From Planctomycetota bacterium (GTDB lineage Bacteria; Planctomycetota; Phycisphaerae; Phycisphaerales; SM1A02): a stretch of DNA of 42,137 nucleotides. Below the pieces are notes generated by a model. That model was not told the DNA's origin, did no database searches, and saw only the letters and a program-made list of their open reading frames with translations. The DNA lies in NCBI GenBank assembly GCA_016873255.1, contig VGXR01000018.1, positions 1 through 42,137 on the forward strand. Direction: 5' to 3'. The position numbers and the translations under genes were made by a program. Every line of letters starts with the position of its first letter. Position 1 is the stretch's first letter. This document shows, piece after piece, positions 16,636-21,658 of this stretch.

Positions 16636-16700
16636 CCCGGAAGCGAGGGGCGGAATCGGAATCCGCCCGCCTCCCGGCACCACGAGGAACGGAGTTCCGC

Positions 16701-17150
16701 ATGAAGGTTCGCACCAGCCGCTTCGGAGAAGTCGAGATCGACCCCAGCCGCCTGCTCGTGTTCCCGCACGGGCTGCTCGGCTTCGCGCGCTTCCGCACGT
16801 TCGCGCTGCTGCAGCCGGACGACCGCGGCGTCTTCTACTGGCTGCAGTCGGTCGAGGACCCGGAGCTTGCGTTCGTGGTCACCGACCCGACGGCGTGGGT
16901 GCCCGGCTACCAGGTGCCGATCCGCCCGGGCGAGCTCGCCGAGCTCGGCCTCGAGCGCGCCGACGACGCGACGCTCTTCGCGATCGTCAACCGCCGCGAC
17001 GGCTCGATCACCGCCAACCTGCAGGGACCGATCGTGCTGAACGCGGCCTCGCGCACCGGCATCCAGCTGGTGCTGAGCGACCGGACCTGGAGCACGCGCC
17101 ACGAGCTGGCCCGCATGCCCGGCGCCGCCGCGGCCGCTCGCACCGCCTGA
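16701..17150 (+). CDS. fliW: Flagellar assembly factor FliW (CsrA antagonist)
   Basis: 149 residues, normal length. It starts MKVRTSRFGEVEID, then FPHGLLGFARFRTFAL, DPELAFVVTDP and NRRDGSITANLQGPIVLNAASRTG, all FliW hallmarks. Family knowledge: in Bacillus, FliW binds either flagellin or CsrA. When flagellin is exported, freed FliW sequesters CsrA and lifts its block on flagellar mRNA. An SD-like AGGAACGGAG precedes the ATG. csrA follows 88 bp downstream, the conserved fliW-csrA order. Confidence 0.95.
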   Translation: MKVRTSRFGEVEIDPSRLLVFPHGLLGFARFRTFALLQPDDRGVFYWLQSVEDPELAFVVTDPTAWVPGYQVPIRPGELAELGLERADDATLFAIVNRRDGSITANLQGPIVLNAASRTGIQLVLSDRTWSTRHELARMPGAAAAARTA

Positions 17151-17177
17151 CACCGCACCGTCTGACACCGCACCGTC
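17148..17177 (+). repeat. Two tandem 15-bp units between fliW and csrA
   Basis: TGACACCGCACCGTC occurs twice in perfect tandem, and the first TGA is the fliW stop. A decayed third unit follows (TGACCCCGAC...). It looks like a small slippage duplication in the spacer. No function is evident. Confidence 0.8.
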
Positions 17178-17238
17178 TGACCCCGACACGGCTGCCGACG
17201 GAACGGCCGCCACGCACGCCCGCCAAGGAAGGCCACGC

Positions 17239-17517
17239 ATGCTCGTACTCTCGCGACACAGGGAAGAGGCAATCATGGTCGGTGACGACGTCGAGATCGT
17301 CGTCGTCGACATCCGCGGCGACAAGGTGCGGCTCGGGGTGAACGCCCCGCCGCGCGTGGCCGTGCACCGCAAGGAGATCTACGAATCGATCCGACAGGAG
17401 AACGCGCAGGCCGCGTCGATGCGCGGTGCGCTGGCGGCGATCCCGGGCACGCCCTCGCTGGCGCACCAGCGCGCGGCCCGCATCCAGGACATCGCGGCGG
17501 CACGCATCAGCGCGTGA
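17239..17517 (+). CDS. csrA: Carbon storage/translation regulator CsrA
   Basis: 92 residues. MLVLSRHREEAIMVGDDVEIVVVDIRGDKVRLGVNAPP (split) and VAVHRKEIYESI cover the full CsrA fold, with the RNA-contact residues L4, R6 and the GV-AP-xVHR segment (R near 44). A tail of about 35 residues follows (QAASMRGALAAIPGT...), making it longer than the usual 61-75. CsrA dimers bind GGA in hairpin loops and usually block ribosome binding. An AAGGAAGG SD lies 6 bases upstream. It pairs with fliW, and a strong hairpin terminator follows. A likely target is the flagellar sigma leader at 37947-38097. Confidence 0.95.
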   Translation: MLVLSRHREEAIMVGDDVEIVVVDIRGDKVRLGVNAPPRVAVHRKEIYESIRQENAQAASMRGALAAIPGTPSLAHQRAARIQDIAAARISA

Positions 17518-17632: not shown

Positions 17633-18010
17633 TCAGGCCGCCTTCGCGTGCGCCACCGAGCAGTGCGTGCGCGCGGTGGCCACGAGCGAGTCAAAGGTGG
17701 CCGGGTCGTGGATGGCGATCTCGCTGAGCATCTTGCGGTTCAGCAGGACGCCGGCGCGCGAGAGGCCGTTGATCAGGAGGCTGTACTTGAAGCCGCGCAT
17801 GCGGCACGCCGCGGTGATGCGGGTGATCCACAGCTGGCGGTAGTTGCGGCGGCGCAGGCGGCGGTGGCGCCACTTGTTGCGCAGGGCGCGCATGATCGCG
17901 ACCTTGGCCTGCTGCTTGAGGCGGCTCTTGGTGCCGTAGTAGCCGCGGGCCTCGCGGAGGAGCTTGCGTCGGGCCTGGGTGCGGGCTGCGCCCTTGCGTG
18001 CACGTGGCAT
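17633..18010 (-). CDS. rplT: 50S ribosomal protein L20
   Basis: 125 residues beginning MPRARKGAARTQARRKLL. It has the typical basic N-terminal helix, GYYGTKSRLKQQAKVAIMRA, RNYRQLWITRITAACR, and a C-terminal domain with YSLLINGL and LNRKMLSEIAI. It binds 23S rRNA early in large-subunit assembly and in several phyla represses its own operon. It lies 109 bp downstream of rpmI on the same strand, a longer gap than usual. That gap contains a GGTGCG-CGC-CGCACC hairpin. Confidence 0.97.
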   Translation of the reverse strand: MPRARKGAARTQARRKLLREARGYYGTKSRLKQQAKVAIMRALRNKWRHRRLRRRNYRQLWITRITAACRMRGFKYSLLINGLSRAGVLLNRKMLSEIAIHDPATFDSLVATARTHCSVAHAKAA

Positions 18011-18080
18011 GGATCAGTCCTTCGTGTCGTGTCCGGCGGAGGCCGAGTGCTCGGCGCTTTGGTCCCGACGGACGATGCGT

Positions 18081-18095
18081 GGTGCGCGCCGCACC
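18081..18095 (-). promoter_or_regulatory. Small hairpin in the rpmI-rplT spacer
   Basis: A 6-bp perfect stem (18081-18086 with 18090-18095) closes on a 3-nt loop, about 70 bases before the rplT start. It could be a processing or attenuation element or an L20 site, but nothing beyond the fold and position supports this. Confidence 0.25.
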
Positions 18096-18119
18096 GTGCG
18101 GCTCGCTGCGGAACGTGGT

Positions 18120-18380
18120 TCAGCCGGCGGCCTTGGCGGACTCGCGGGCCTTGTCGTCGGCGATGTGCTGCTCTTGCGAGCGCAGGCCGCGGTTGAGGAG
18201 CTTCTTCAGGTAGCGCAGGTCGCCGGTGCGCGCGTAGCGCGACTTGCGGTACGACTGCACCTGGGTGCCGGTCTTGTTGCTCTTGATGTGGCGGCTGTTC
18301 GGCGCCTTGAAGCGGACCTTGCCGCTCTTGGTGAGCTTGATGCGCTTGAGGAGGCCGCGGTGGGACTTTTGCTTCGGCAT
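18120..18380 (-). CDS. rpmI: 50S ribosomal protein L35
   Basis: 86 residues from MPKQKSHRGLLKRI. The L35 signature is complete: KTHxG-like KSHRGLLKR, GKVRFKAPNSRHIKSNKT and KLLNRGL. The protein is about 20 residues longer than the usual ~65, with a tail RSQEQHIADDKARESAKAAG. It is the first gene of rpmI-rplT. infC, the usual first member of the operon, is absent. A good sigma-70-type promoter lies 47 bases upstream of the ATG, so this two-gene unit appears independently transcribed. Confidence 0.95.
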   Translation of the reverse strand: MPKQKSHRGLLKRIKLTKSGKVRFKAPNSRHIKSNKTGTQVQSYRKSRYARTGDLRYLKKLLNRGLRSQEQHIADDKARESAKAAG

Positions 18381-18484: not shown

Positions 18485-19594
18485 TCACTGGGCCACGAAG
18501 TTGTCGGCCGGGTGGCTTGGCCACGCGCGCAGGTCCGATCGCTCCAGCCCGCGCTCGTCGCGCGGGAGCCAGATGTTGTCGATCGCCCCCGCGGGCGGCG
18601 AGGTCAGGATCGGCGAGTTCCGCCAGTCGAACGCACCGTCGCCGAAGAGGATGTTCTGCCCCGTGCCCTGGTGGTTGGCGGAGTTTGCCGTCCGCGGGGG
18701 CGGGGCCGCGCCGCGGCGCATCGATGCCACAAGCGGGTTGGCGTCGGCCGCCAGCACGGCCGAGGACGGGAGGTCGAAGGTGAAGCGGTCGCCGCGCGTG
18801 GGCACGCGGTAGGCGAAGCAGGGCGCGCCGGAGGCGGCGCAAGCCGGGCACCGGAGCGCGTCGGTGGCGCAGTAGCCCTGCGCCGCAAGCAGCGCCAGGT
18901 GCGCTCCGTGGTTGGCGGCGGACCAGTCCTGCGCGACGGTGGTGATGCGCACCACGGCACCCGGCATCTGGATGACGATGCGCGTGGCGCCGGCGGTCGG
19001 GTTCTGCATCCGCGACGGCGGCGCCACGGGGCGGGGACCCGCCTCGGGCAGGTAGCCGGTCGCGCGCGGGGCCGCGGGCGAGGGGCGGAAGAGCGAGCCG
19101 ATGTCCGCGATCGATGCCGCCGCCGGCAGCGCGCCCGCGTTGCTTCCGGCGTATGCGCCCATGCCCTCGTACAGGCCGCGCAGGCTCTGCTGGCAGCCGG
19201 CGGTCATTCGGTTCTCGCGGATCCGCGCGGCGATCGGGAGCGTCACGCCCACGCCCACGAGCACCAGCGCCGCGATGCTCACGAAGTCGGAGAGCCGGAA
19301 CGCGCCCGCGCGCGTGTCCACGCGCCGCGATGCCTCCGCCGCCGCCTCGTAGCGGTCGATGCGAGCGAGCGTCGCGTTCACCAGCGTGTCATCGGTGGCG
19401 TCGGCGGGGTAGGCATCGAGCACCTGCATCTGGCGGATCAGCGCCATCGCCCGCGGCCGGTCGGCCTCGGGCAGCAGGTGGACCCTCGAAGCGTCAAAGC
19501 CGTGCTCGGCCAGGAAGTCGAGCACGCGCATGTCTGCGTCGCAGAGGTTGGGGGCCGGGTGTTCGCCCGGCGGCGGGTTGGTCGGAGGGTTCAT
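18485..19594 (-). CDS. Membrane anti-sigma-like protein with DUF1559-like pseudopilin region
   Basis: 369 residues. The cytoplasmic N-terminus (res 1-~100) is helical and acidic with no zinc-finger motif. A membrane span (VSIAALVLVGVGVTLPIAAR) runs straight into RENRMTAGCQQSLRGLYEGMGAYAG, like the pseudopilin/DUF1559 pattern 'hydrophobic helix - R.A.C..NL..L..A...YA'. Near the C-terminus NHQGTGQNILFGDGAFDW matches the H-X9-DG type ending of planctomycete DUF1559 proteins. Its start overlaps the stop of the ECF sigma gene (ATGA), the classical sigma/anti-sigma arrangement. I infer a membrane anchor that restrains the sigma factor and senses the cell exterior. This combination was not known to me as a named family. 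Confidence 0.65.
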   Translation of the reverse strand: MNPPTNPPPGEHPAPNLCDADMRVLDFLAEHGFDASRVHLLPEADRPRAMALIRQMQVLDAYPADATDDTLVNATLARIDRYEAAAEASRRVDTRAGAFRLSDFVSIAALVLVGVGVTLPIAARIRENRMTAGCQQSLRGLYEGMGAYAGSNAGALPAAASIADIGSLFRPSPAAPRATGYLPEAGPRPVAPPSRMQNPTAGATRIVIQMPGAVVRITTVAQDWSAANHGAHLALLAAQGYCATDALRCPACAASGAPCFAYRVPTRGDRFTFDLPSSAVLAADANPLVASMRRGAAPPPRTANSANHQGTGQNILFGDGAFDWRNSPILTSPPAGAIDNIWLPRDERGLERSDLRAWPSHPADNFVAQ

Positions 19595-20220
19595 GCCATG
19601 GACTCCTTCCCGCGTCCCTTGCTGCGAGCCGGCGACGTGGCAGAGGTCTTCCAGGCCTCGGCGAAGGTCGCGACGGCCGCGTGAAGACGGCTCTTGACTG
19701 TTCCGAGCGGCACGCCGAGCACCTCGGAGATCTGCTGGTAGCTCATCTTCTGGAAGTAGTTGAGCTGCAGCACCTCGCGGTAGATGGCGGGCATCCCGTC
19801 GACCACGCCCTTGACGCGGTCACGCGTCTCGGTGGACTCCATGGCTGCGGAGGGCGCTTCGGCCTCGGCTTCCATGAGGTCGATCATCCTGGCACCGTCG
19901 GGGTCACCGCCAACGGGCGCGTCGAGGCTGGCCGCGCGCCGGCGCTTCTGCCGGCGATGCCAGTCGCGCGCCTTGTTGGCGGCGATCGTGAAGAGCCAGG
20001 GCTTGAAGACCCGCTCCCGGTCGAAGGTCGGCGCGGACAGGTGCACCTGCAGGAACGTCTCCTGGAAGACGTCGTCGGCGGCGGCGCCCGAGCCGAGGAA
20101 GCGGGCGAGGAATCCGTGGAGTTCCGAGCGGTAGCGTTCCACGAGCACGGCGAACGCTTCGCGATCGCCTTCGATGTAGGACGCAAGCAGGGACTCGTCG
20201 GATCGGTCGGTGGCCGGCAT
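19591..20220 (-). CDS. ECF-type RNA polymerase sigma factor
   Basis: 209 residues from MPATDRSDESLLASYIEGD. Region 2 is clear: AFAVLVERYRSELHGFLARFLG, DDVFQETFLQVH, and FKPWLFTIAANKARDWHRRQKRR for -10 recognition. Region 4 is MPAIYREVLQLNYFQKMSYQQISEVLGVPLGTVKSRL (split), the HTH for the -35. The frame remains open upstream through an ATG near 20417, but ECF alignment supports the start used. The linker between regions is long (about 45 residues). It is translationally coupled to the downstream membrane protein and divergent from hpnH, sharing the 300-bp region 20221-20521. Its regulon is unknown. Confidence 0.92.
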   Translation of the reverse strand: MPATDRSDESLLASYIEGDREAFAVLVERYRSELHGFLARFLGSGAAADDVFQETFLQVHLSAPTFDRERVFKPWLFTIAANKARDWHRRQKRRRAASLDAPVGGDPDGARMIDLMEAEAEAPSAAMESTETRDRVKGVVDGMPAIYREVLQLNYFQKMSYQQISEVLGVPLGTVKSRLHAAVATFAEAWKTSATSPARSKGRGKESMA

Positions 20221-20426
20221 CGCGGTCGGCGCGACAGGGCGCGCGCTCGTCCGGCGGATGCTACGGGGCTGATTCAGGACGGCGGTGGCCGTGGCGCCGA
20301 TCTGGCGCGCGCCGCGGGCAACCGAGCCTGCCAAGGCGTCCAGTTCCCCCCGGACCGCGTCGGCACCGAGGGTGCCGAGGCCATGCAGGGGGTTGGCGTG
20401 CTCGGCAAGGATCGTCATGACCGTGC

Positions 20427-20473
20427 TACGATCCTCCCCCCGGCCGGGATCGCCCGAGTTCGGATCGCCCGAG
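20427..20473 (+). promoter_or_regulatory. Candidate hpnH promoter and direct repeats in the divergent sigma/hpnH region
   Basis: The 301-bp gap 20221-20521 has no gene. An extended -10 (TGC-TACGAT, -10 at 20427-20432) faces hpnH, about 90 bases before its ATG. Just downstream, GGATCGCCCGAG occurs twice (20447-20458 and 20462-20473), a possible operator in the leader. A -35 is not evident. Nothing else in this gap is recognised. Confidence 0.4.
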
Positions 20474-20521: not shown

Positions 20522-21658
20522 ATGGCAGTGCCTGTTTCCCAGATGTGGACGGTCGCGTCGTACGTTCTCGGACAGCGTCTCCGCGGGCGCAAGCACTATC
20601 CGCTTGTGCTGATGCTGGAGCCGCTCTTCCGCTGCAACCTGTCCTGCGCCGGCTGCGGGAAGATCCAGTACCCCGCCCACATCCTGAAGCAGCAGCTCAC
20701 CGTGGACGAGTGCCTGAAGGCGGTCGACGAGTGCGGCGCGCCGATGGTGAGCATCCCGGGCGGCGAGCCGCTGCTGCACCCGCAGATCAAGGAGCTGGTC
20801 GAGGCCCTGGTCGCGCGGAAGAAGTACATCTACCTGTGCACCAATGCGCTCCTCCTGAAGGAGAAGCTGGAGGCCGGCTGGTTCAAGCCGAGCAAGTACC
20901 TCAGCTTCAGCGTCCACATGGACGGCCAGGAGGAGCACCACGACTTCGCCGTGTGCCGCGAGGGCACCTTCCAGAAGGCCGTCGAGGGGATCCGGCTGGC
21001 GGTGAAGATGGGCTTCCGGGTCACCACCAACACCACGCTCTTCCAGGGCGCGGACCCGGCGAGCGTGCGAGGGTTCTTCGACGAGATGATGGACCTCGGC
21101 GTCGAGGGCATGATGGTGTCCCCGGGCTACGCCTACGACAAGGCGCCCGACCAGCAGAACTTCCTCGGCCGCCGCAAGACGAACGAGCTGTTCGAGATGA
21201 TCCTCTCGAACCGCAAGAAGCGCTGGAAGTTCAACATGAGCCCGCTGTTCCTCGAGTTCCTCATGGGCAAGCGCGAGTTCGAGTGCACCCCCTGGGGCAG
21301 CCCGGCCTACAACATCTTCGGCTGGCAGAAGCCGTGCTACCTGCTGCAGGAGGGGTACTTCGACACCTTCAAGGAGCTGGTGGATGCCACGGACTGGTCG
21401 AAGTACGGCGTGAAGAGCGGCAACCCCAAGTGCCAGAACTGCATGGTGCACTGCGGGTACGAGCCGAGCGCCGTGGACTACACGTTCTCCGGCGTCGGCG
21501 GCATCTGGGCCAACGTGAAGTCGATCCTCGCGCCGCTCTACCCGAACGCGCGCGCCGCCGAGCGGCTGGCCGAGGAGGCGAAGAAGCCGCATCGGCCGAT
21601 CGAGCGCCTCGTGCAGCTCGGCGTGGCGAGGGACTTGGCCGAAAAGTCAGCGGCGTAA
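20522..21658 (+). CDS. hpnH: Adenosyl-hopene transferase HpnH (radical SAM)
   Basis: 378 residues starting MAVPVSQMWTVASYV. The radical-SAM cluster motif CX3CX2C is C38-NLS-C42-AG-C45. VSIPGGEPLLHPQI is the GGE motif for SAM. The C-terminal half has PSPL-like FNMSPLFLEFLMGKREF, TPWGSPAYNIFGWQKPCYLL and CQNCMVHCGYEP, as in HpnH. The enzyme joins a 5'-deoxyadenosyl radical to diploptene/hopene, the first step to extended C35 hopanoids. No other hopanoid gene is adjacent. The TAA stop is formed by the first bases of repeat copy A, so the last codon boundary coincides with the element end. The upstream gene is divergent. Confidence 0.95.
   Translation: MAVPVSQMWTVASYVLGQRLRGRKHYPLVLMLEPLFRCNLSCAGCGKIQYPAHILKQQLTVDECLKAVDECGAPMVSIPGGEPLLHPQIKELVEALVARKKYIYLCTNALLLKEKLEAGWFKPSKYLSFSVHMDGQEEHHDFAVCREGTFQKAVEGIRLAVKMGFRVTTNTTLFQGADPASVRGFFDEMMDLGVEGMMVSPGYAYDKAPDQQNFLGRRKTNELFEMILSNRKKRWKFNMSPLFLEFLMGKREFECTPWGSPAYNIFGWQKPCYLLQEGYFDTFKELVDATDWSKYGVKSGNPKCQNCMVHCGYEPSAVDYTFSGVGGIWANVKSILAPLYPNARAAERLAEEAKKPHRPIERLVQLGVARDLAEKSAA

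Follow-up and report, generated by a model that had tools for sequence, protein, structure and literature searches.

Can a protein with the fold of a type IV pilin serve as the membrane-bound regulator of an ECF sigma factor? The question arises from two adjacent genes in a planctomycete sequence of 42,137 nucleotides (the window, by which we mean this whole stretch), which is one contig of a source genome of 2.78 Mb that is 97.5% complete. ECF responses are set by sensor domains, and pilin folds are, to our knowledge, known as fibre parts and not as anti-sigma sensors. The first-pass annotation had described an ECF sigma factor coupled to a pseudopilin-like membrane regulator, and the pairing of the genes across relatives, homology to both RskA and pilins, and a structural model now support this description. 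Both genes lie on the minus strand, the sigma gene first, and they overlap by ATGA, as annotated, with the sigma stop lying over the ATG of the membrane protein. The features of the locus are the following:

20425..20451, minus strand: predicted autoregulatory ECF-type promoter, GATCC-N14-ATCGTAGC, the upstream sigma ATG lying 6 bases beyond its end
19591..20418, minus strand: ECF sigma gene, 275 aa from ATG 20418 or 209 aa from ATG 20220
18485..19594, minus strand: membrane anti-sigma candidate, 369 aa, in ATGA overlap with the sigma gene
19322..19540, minus strand: class I-type anti-sigma domain, residues 19-91, with helices 19-30, 35-40, 43-61 and 69-91 and without the zinc motif
19142..19300, minus strand: type IV pilin alpha-1 helix (span and exported half), residues 99-151, with D at pilin position 5, P22 and R28
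18989..19114, minus strand: low-confidence insertion, residues 161-202, missing from most homologues
18488..18988, minus strand: exported beta-rich pilin-like domain (DUF1559/H-X9-DG type), residues 203-369, with C249 predicted to pair with C134
18635..18673, minus strand: H-X10-DG motif, residues 308-320, with positions conserved in most of 156 homologues
20522-21658, plus strand: hpnH (adenosyl-hopene transferase; TIGR03470, 4.3e-162), divergent from the sigma operon
17633-18380, minus strand: rpmI and rplT, on the strand of the anti-sigma gene and downstream of it
16698-17517, plus strand: fliW and csrA, adjoining, a flagellar regulation pair

By domain content the upstream gene is an ECF sigma factor of the sigma-70 family with regions 2 and 4 only: its ORF matches Sigma70_r2 (PF04542, 1e-19), Sigma70_r4_2 (PF08281, 1.3e-13) and TIGR02937 (7.7e-30), regions 1.1 and 3 are absent, and the model of a relative shows two folded sigma parts only. 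Its start had been placed at 20220, an ATG that is probably internal. The upstream ATG at 20418 heads an open frame in nine of the ten loci read, from the source genome and nine relatives of the same genus (the tenth, L012, was uninformative on this point, the script having anchored at the wrong place), and is the more likely start. The resulting N-terminal extension of 66 aa varies in sequence and length, with its frame kept in those nine loci. GC-rich DNA has many open frames; a non-coding or wrong-frame reading of the locus was rejected, as homologues and domains identify a minus-strand pair.

The membrane protein of the window, searched alone, gives no significant match in Pfam or NCBIfam, and a single-sequence search of the genome contigs with it found no relative. 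The AlphaFold model bears out the annotated order of a cytoplasmic helical part, one membrane span and an exported domain, and it gives the four N-terminal helices with high confidence as a three-helix bundle joined by a linker to a fourth helix, which is the class I (ASDI) arrangement. A profile of 44 family members, searched against all PDB sequences, matches RskA, the anti-sigma factor of SigK (4nqw_B), at profile positions 1-70 with a modest E-value of 3e-4, in a search that also returned unrelated and designed helical proteins among its weaker rows (above E 0.2). The NCBIfam 'anti-sigma factor' model NF052375 matches 9 of the 47 aligned homologues (best 5e-8) at scores far below its cut-off, which cannot settle function. 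A zinc-binding anti-sigma factor (ZAS) was rejected because the motif HX3CX2C, whose absence had already been remarked upon, occurs in 0/156 homologues; these are the 156 of 176 rows kept after duplicate removal, on which the site tallies below are also based. As a separate observation, two tandem anti-sigma-like domains precede the pilin part at L030, L035, L044, L046, L048, L050-L052 and L064-L080.

The proposal that the sigma factor and this N-terminal region would be predicted as a complex was upheld in a relative whose two genes share one reading frame and were modelled as a single chain with the single stop read as glycine. The tethered model of sigma factor plus anti-sigma domain reached a pTM of 0.83, and most of sigma 2, sigma 4 and the anti-sigma domain scored 94-98 pLDDT; such a tether forces proximity and may favour contact. 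The modelled sigma fits the crystal structure of RsiW-bound SigW (Z 17.3, 2.9 A, 157/157 residues), whereas it superposes on RNA polymerase-bound sigmaE only at 27 A. The model thus supports, but does not prove, binding of the sigma factor by the anti-sigma domain.

The neighbour survey that had been suggested separates two kinds of protein. Among non-redundant proteins with the anti-sigma domain, 175/177 are adjoined by a same-strand sigma gene, as are all of the 174 with enough upstream DNA, and the two loci lacking it lie near contig ends; proteins of the membrane family thus stand beside an ECF sigma gene as class I anti-sigma factors do. By contrast, a same-strand sigma gene was found beside 0/28 pilin-only relatives, and one protein intermediate between both classes (L058, profile start 75) is also without it. 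Loci were fetched by their match to the membrane protein and not to the sigma factor, same-strand sigma genes alone were counted, and redundancy in the sets of 177, 28 and 1 was judged on the final 150 residues of the frame, which leaves close relatives in. The expectation that the pair would be conserved also held at the level of genomes: it is present in 58/61 relatives, the exceptions being G011, in which the C-terminal piece alone was found at a contig end, G012 and G043. Among the spacings tallied at 97 loci, the ATGA overlap is the most frequent (45 loci).

In a sample of the class, 148/198 genomes gave a strong match of full or almost full length, at 1.3e-38 or below. A second profile applied to the remaining 50 genomes gave at least 7 matches that include the anti-sigma part, some of them fragments, and many genomes of family f11 gave pilin-only matches. 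The sigma gene adjoins the membrane gene in 40/40 class-level regions, which were picked from the best matches. The anti-sigma part beside a sigma gene also occurs beyond the class, in Singulisphaera sp. GP187 (L142) and in ten more genomes of a phylum sample. Judged by this distribution, the pair is old and spans the class Phycisphaerae and beyond. Its surroundings are conserved within the order Phycisphaerales, where, in loci with enough flank, the pair tends to sit between divergent hpnH and rpmI-rplT; none of hpnH, rpmI and rplT was found beside the pair within the stretches examined at class-level loci L153-L172.

The second half of the membrane protein had been noted for DUF1559 and pseudopilin features, and family matches, PDB pilins and the fold model all bear these out. 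The AlphaFold model of the window protein (mean pLDDT 83.8, pTM 0.62) has a helix of 51 residues (101-151) followed by strands, with a disordered insertion at about 161-202; this is the long alpha-1 helix and beta-rich exported domain of a type IV pilin-like fold. In the PDB profile search geopilin, PilE1, PilA and GspG match within profile positions 77-163 (E 1.6e-3 to 1). Foldseek found nothing significant at E<=1e-3 with the whole model. VIA-align returned seven rows at Z>=2, of which the top three are type IV pilins with middling scores (Z 5.5, 5.0 and 4.4), and in the best row model residue 99 falls on pilin residue 1. Moreover, stand-alone pilins of other planctomycete classes match family-profile positions 92-288 with E-values down to 6.3e-29, and residues 98-157 can be aligned by eye, gapless, with the pilins L199 and L215 of the source genome. 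A chance pilin resemblance of the span was rejected on the E-values of the stand-alone pilins and the PDB pilin matches. The pilin-only relative L215 (also L003, contig C10), a canonical prepilin with a GYTLVE site and the closest pilin to the anti-sigma protein, itself lies divergent from another ECF sigma gene.

DUF1559 (PF07596) matches 13/47 aligned homologues (best 9.9e-5) and TIGR04294 (H-X9-DG) matches 5/47 (best 1.5e-3); these values do not reach the curated cut-offs, and the window protein matches neither family. By profile, the membrane protein is related to the DUF1559/H-X9-DG family but is not filed as a member. Its own motif, counted in the sequence, is H-X10-DG and not H-X9-DG, and the motif is well kept among the 156 homologues (H308 in 145, G312 in 150, Q313 in 148, D319 in 144, G320 in 142). 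The exported residues C134 and C249 are both present in 134 homologues, both absent in 20 and present singly in 2, and because they co-occur a C134-C249 disulphide is likely, although kinship among the homologues inflates this test. The best conserved region is the membrane half of the pilin helix (mean entropy 2.23 vs 2.44-3.13 elsewhere), the differences being small.

Processing of this protein as a pilin appears unsupported. TIGR02532 finds 23 prepilin sites in the source genome and does not find the anti-sigma gene there, nor is it among the families that match any of the 47 homologues at E<=1. Across the 156 homologues, position -1 is mostly Arg (72), with Gly in 18, Ser in 11 and Ala in 6, the last three together making 35; position +1 is Phe in 57; and position +5 carries an acid in 117, this being Asp in 81 and Glu in 36. 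These tallies depart from the combination that marks a processed prepilin (Gly or Ala at -1, a hydrophobic residue at +1 and Glu at +5). In the window protein the residues at the cut site are A|F, and Ala stands at -1 in 9 of 21 pilins read from its own genome, the starts of which were located by a permissive regular expression that missed 2 of 23. The genome has one match to prepilin peptidase and seven to T2SSF. A10/A11 and P22 of the pilin helix are conserved among the 156 homologues. On these tallies the prepilin cleavage site is degenerate, and the protein is best described as an unprocessed pilin.

We also sought the promoter from which the pair might be read. Among spaced pairs of words in the 154 regions upstream of sigma genes, the commonest is an ECF-type site, GAWC-N17-CGTA. 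It occurs in 68/154 regions, whereas 200 shuffles gave 1.09 on average and never more than 4; the 154 were kept from 176 regions, and the figure of 68 is inflated by close relatives. A strict form, derived from sigma promoters of the genus only, occurs once per genome in 12/14 genus genomes, always at the sigma locus, and is missing from G011 and G012; the reversed control gave 0. With a promoter-like site of this kind ahead of the sigma gene, autoregulation through GAWC-N17-CGTA is therefore likely. Control of pilin genes by this sigma factor was considered and found no support in the loci scanned. Over 35 pilin, peptidase and T2SS loci of the source genome, matches to a loose motif were estimated to be near the chance number, and none lay within 300 bases upstream of a prepilin gene in the gene's direction; therefore, nothing links the regulon to pili. 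One match (L225), with an 18-base spacer and without the ATCGTAGC context, falls within the 3′ end of the ORF that precedes a T2SSF gene, some 150 bases upstream of that gene's start, and is probably due to chance. At several loci (L153, L155 and L142, from several classes) the CGTA resembling a -10 element falls almost on the sigma start codon, which suggests leaderless transcripts or a later start.

We consider it very probable that these genes encode an autoregulated ECF sigma factor and a membrane-bound class I-type anti-sigma factor with an unprocessed pilin-like anchor and sensor. Pilins have an N-in, C-out topology, and the same is predicted for the membrane protein. Its anti-sigma domain would occupy the place of a prepilin's short cytoplasmic leader, and because it stands there the fusion would have required no change of topology. 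With a degenerate cleavage site and mostly Asp in place of Glu5, the pilin part would stay uncut in the membrane, where it would act as anchor and exported sensor. At rest the four-helix domain would clamp the sigma factor away from RNA polymerase; homology, the model and the sequence support such sequestration, as they do autoregulation, and we infer inhibition itself. The pilin-like domain, in the sensor role that we infer for it, would feel an envelope event, in the simplest case the opening of the C134-C249 disulphide or an altered contact with a ligand, with pilins or with the assembly machinery. The sigma factor would then be released, probably through proteolysis of the kind known for RseA and RsiW, and once free would transcribe its own operon from GAWC-N17-CGTA.

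The membrane protein might instead activate or deliver the sigma factor, in the pro-sigma role known for FecR-like proteins. Conserved gene order and a predicted contact are equally expected of such a partner, but the modelled sigma matches SigW as inhibited by RsiW and the N-terminal domain matches the inhibitory domain of RskA, which makes an activator improbable. Release could also fall to the prepilin peptidase acting as a signalling protease, which would cut before residue 99, free the anti-sigma domain with its sigma factor and methylate the new pilin. The A|F site of the window protein, the Ala at -1 in 9/21 pilins of the same genome and the single peptidase match would be in keeping with this. 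However, the 156 homologues have Arg at -1 in 72 and Gly, Ser or Ala in only 35, Phe at +1 in 57 and Glu at +5 in 36, and TIGR02532 matches none of the 47 homologues at E<=1, such that cleavage of this kind seems even less probable than activation.

More serious is the view that the pilin-like domain is an inherited fold which binds a small ligand or serves as an anchor, in an ordinary envelope-stress pair with no tie to pili. This view, to which we give somewhat less than an even chance, is compatible with the sigma/anti-sigma part of our preferred explanation. It would account for a strict promoter found at the sigma gene only, the lack of promoter matches just upstream of the genome's prepilin genes, neighbours (hpnH, rpmI and rplT) that are not pilus genes, and the lost cleavage site. 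Against it, conservation is highest in the membrane half of the pilin helix, albeit by the small differences in entropy given above (2.23 vs 2.44-3.13), and an acid at +5 in 117/156 homologues, together with A10/A11 and P22, goes beyond the needs of an anchor. A bolder version of the sensor, which we regard as rather unlikely, is that an assembly-incompetent pilin samples the pilins of the cell: its alpha-1 helix would compete with pilins or prepilins for the platform or for partner helices, and the sigma factor would report pilin supply or the assembly of a pilus or pseudopilus. Were this true, a sigma factor would directly read out a secretion or pilus machine.

Our preferred reading, of an anti-sigma factor with an unprocessed pilin-like anchor and sensor, has close parallels. 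RskA-SigK of M. tuberculosis and RsiW-SigW of B. subtilis are paired with membrane class I anti-sigma factors, and the protein described here resembles these in its N-terminal four-helix domain (zinc-free as in RskA), its span, its exported C-terminus and its gene beside that of the sigma factor. Unlike in RskA and RsiW, a type IV pilin-like domain makes up the exported part, and a pilin alpha-1 helix forms the span. With planctomycete DUF1559/H-X9-DG prepilins (PF07596, TIGR04294, TIGR02532) it shares the alpha-1 helix, a C..NL region, LP, a Cys pair and H..G.GQN.L..DG; it differs from them in having an anti-sigma domain in place of the leader, a degenerate GFxxxE site with Asp (81) exceeding Glu (36) at +5 among 156 homologues, and a sigma gene beside it in 175/177 cases. 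PilS is a membrane kinase that senses the PilA pilin in the inner membrane, and a regulator reading the state of a membrane pilin is a possible common logic; here, however, the regulator itself bears the pilin fold, and its proposed output is an ECF sigma factor.

In the accessible text of a survey of ECF anti-sigma factors, sensor domains differ by group, and the ASDI class is defined by a three-helix bundle on sigma 4, a fourth helix on sigma 2 and variable C-terminal sensor domains (PMC7406223). The present protein fits that definition, and a pilin or DUF1559 sensor is not named in that text. In the literature that we searched we recognised no description of a pilin-like or DUF1559 anti-sigma factor; this agrees with the initial impression that a pilin-type sensor would be unusual, and we make no claim that it is unpublished. 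Taken together, systems that pair an ECF sigma factor with an anti-sigma factor of the membrane class I type are already known, and the pilin-type sensor architecture is, relative to that literature, new. Two studies give 74 DUF1559 genes in R. baltica (PMC2754498) and 68 in P. limnophila, two of them essential (PMC10632474). If our reading is right, it would provide a function for one branch of this large and unexplained planctomycete expansion and would show how a regulatory domain can take over the position of a prepilin leader, and the isolate Singulisphaera sp. GP187 would offer a system in which to test it.

Lastly, hpnH and the sigma operon have a common intergenic region that is kept across much of the order, and co-regulation with hopanoid synthesis is possible. 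Within it, a conserved block at 20428-20440, read on the plus strand, resembles an extended -10 element towards hpnH and could serve both directions.
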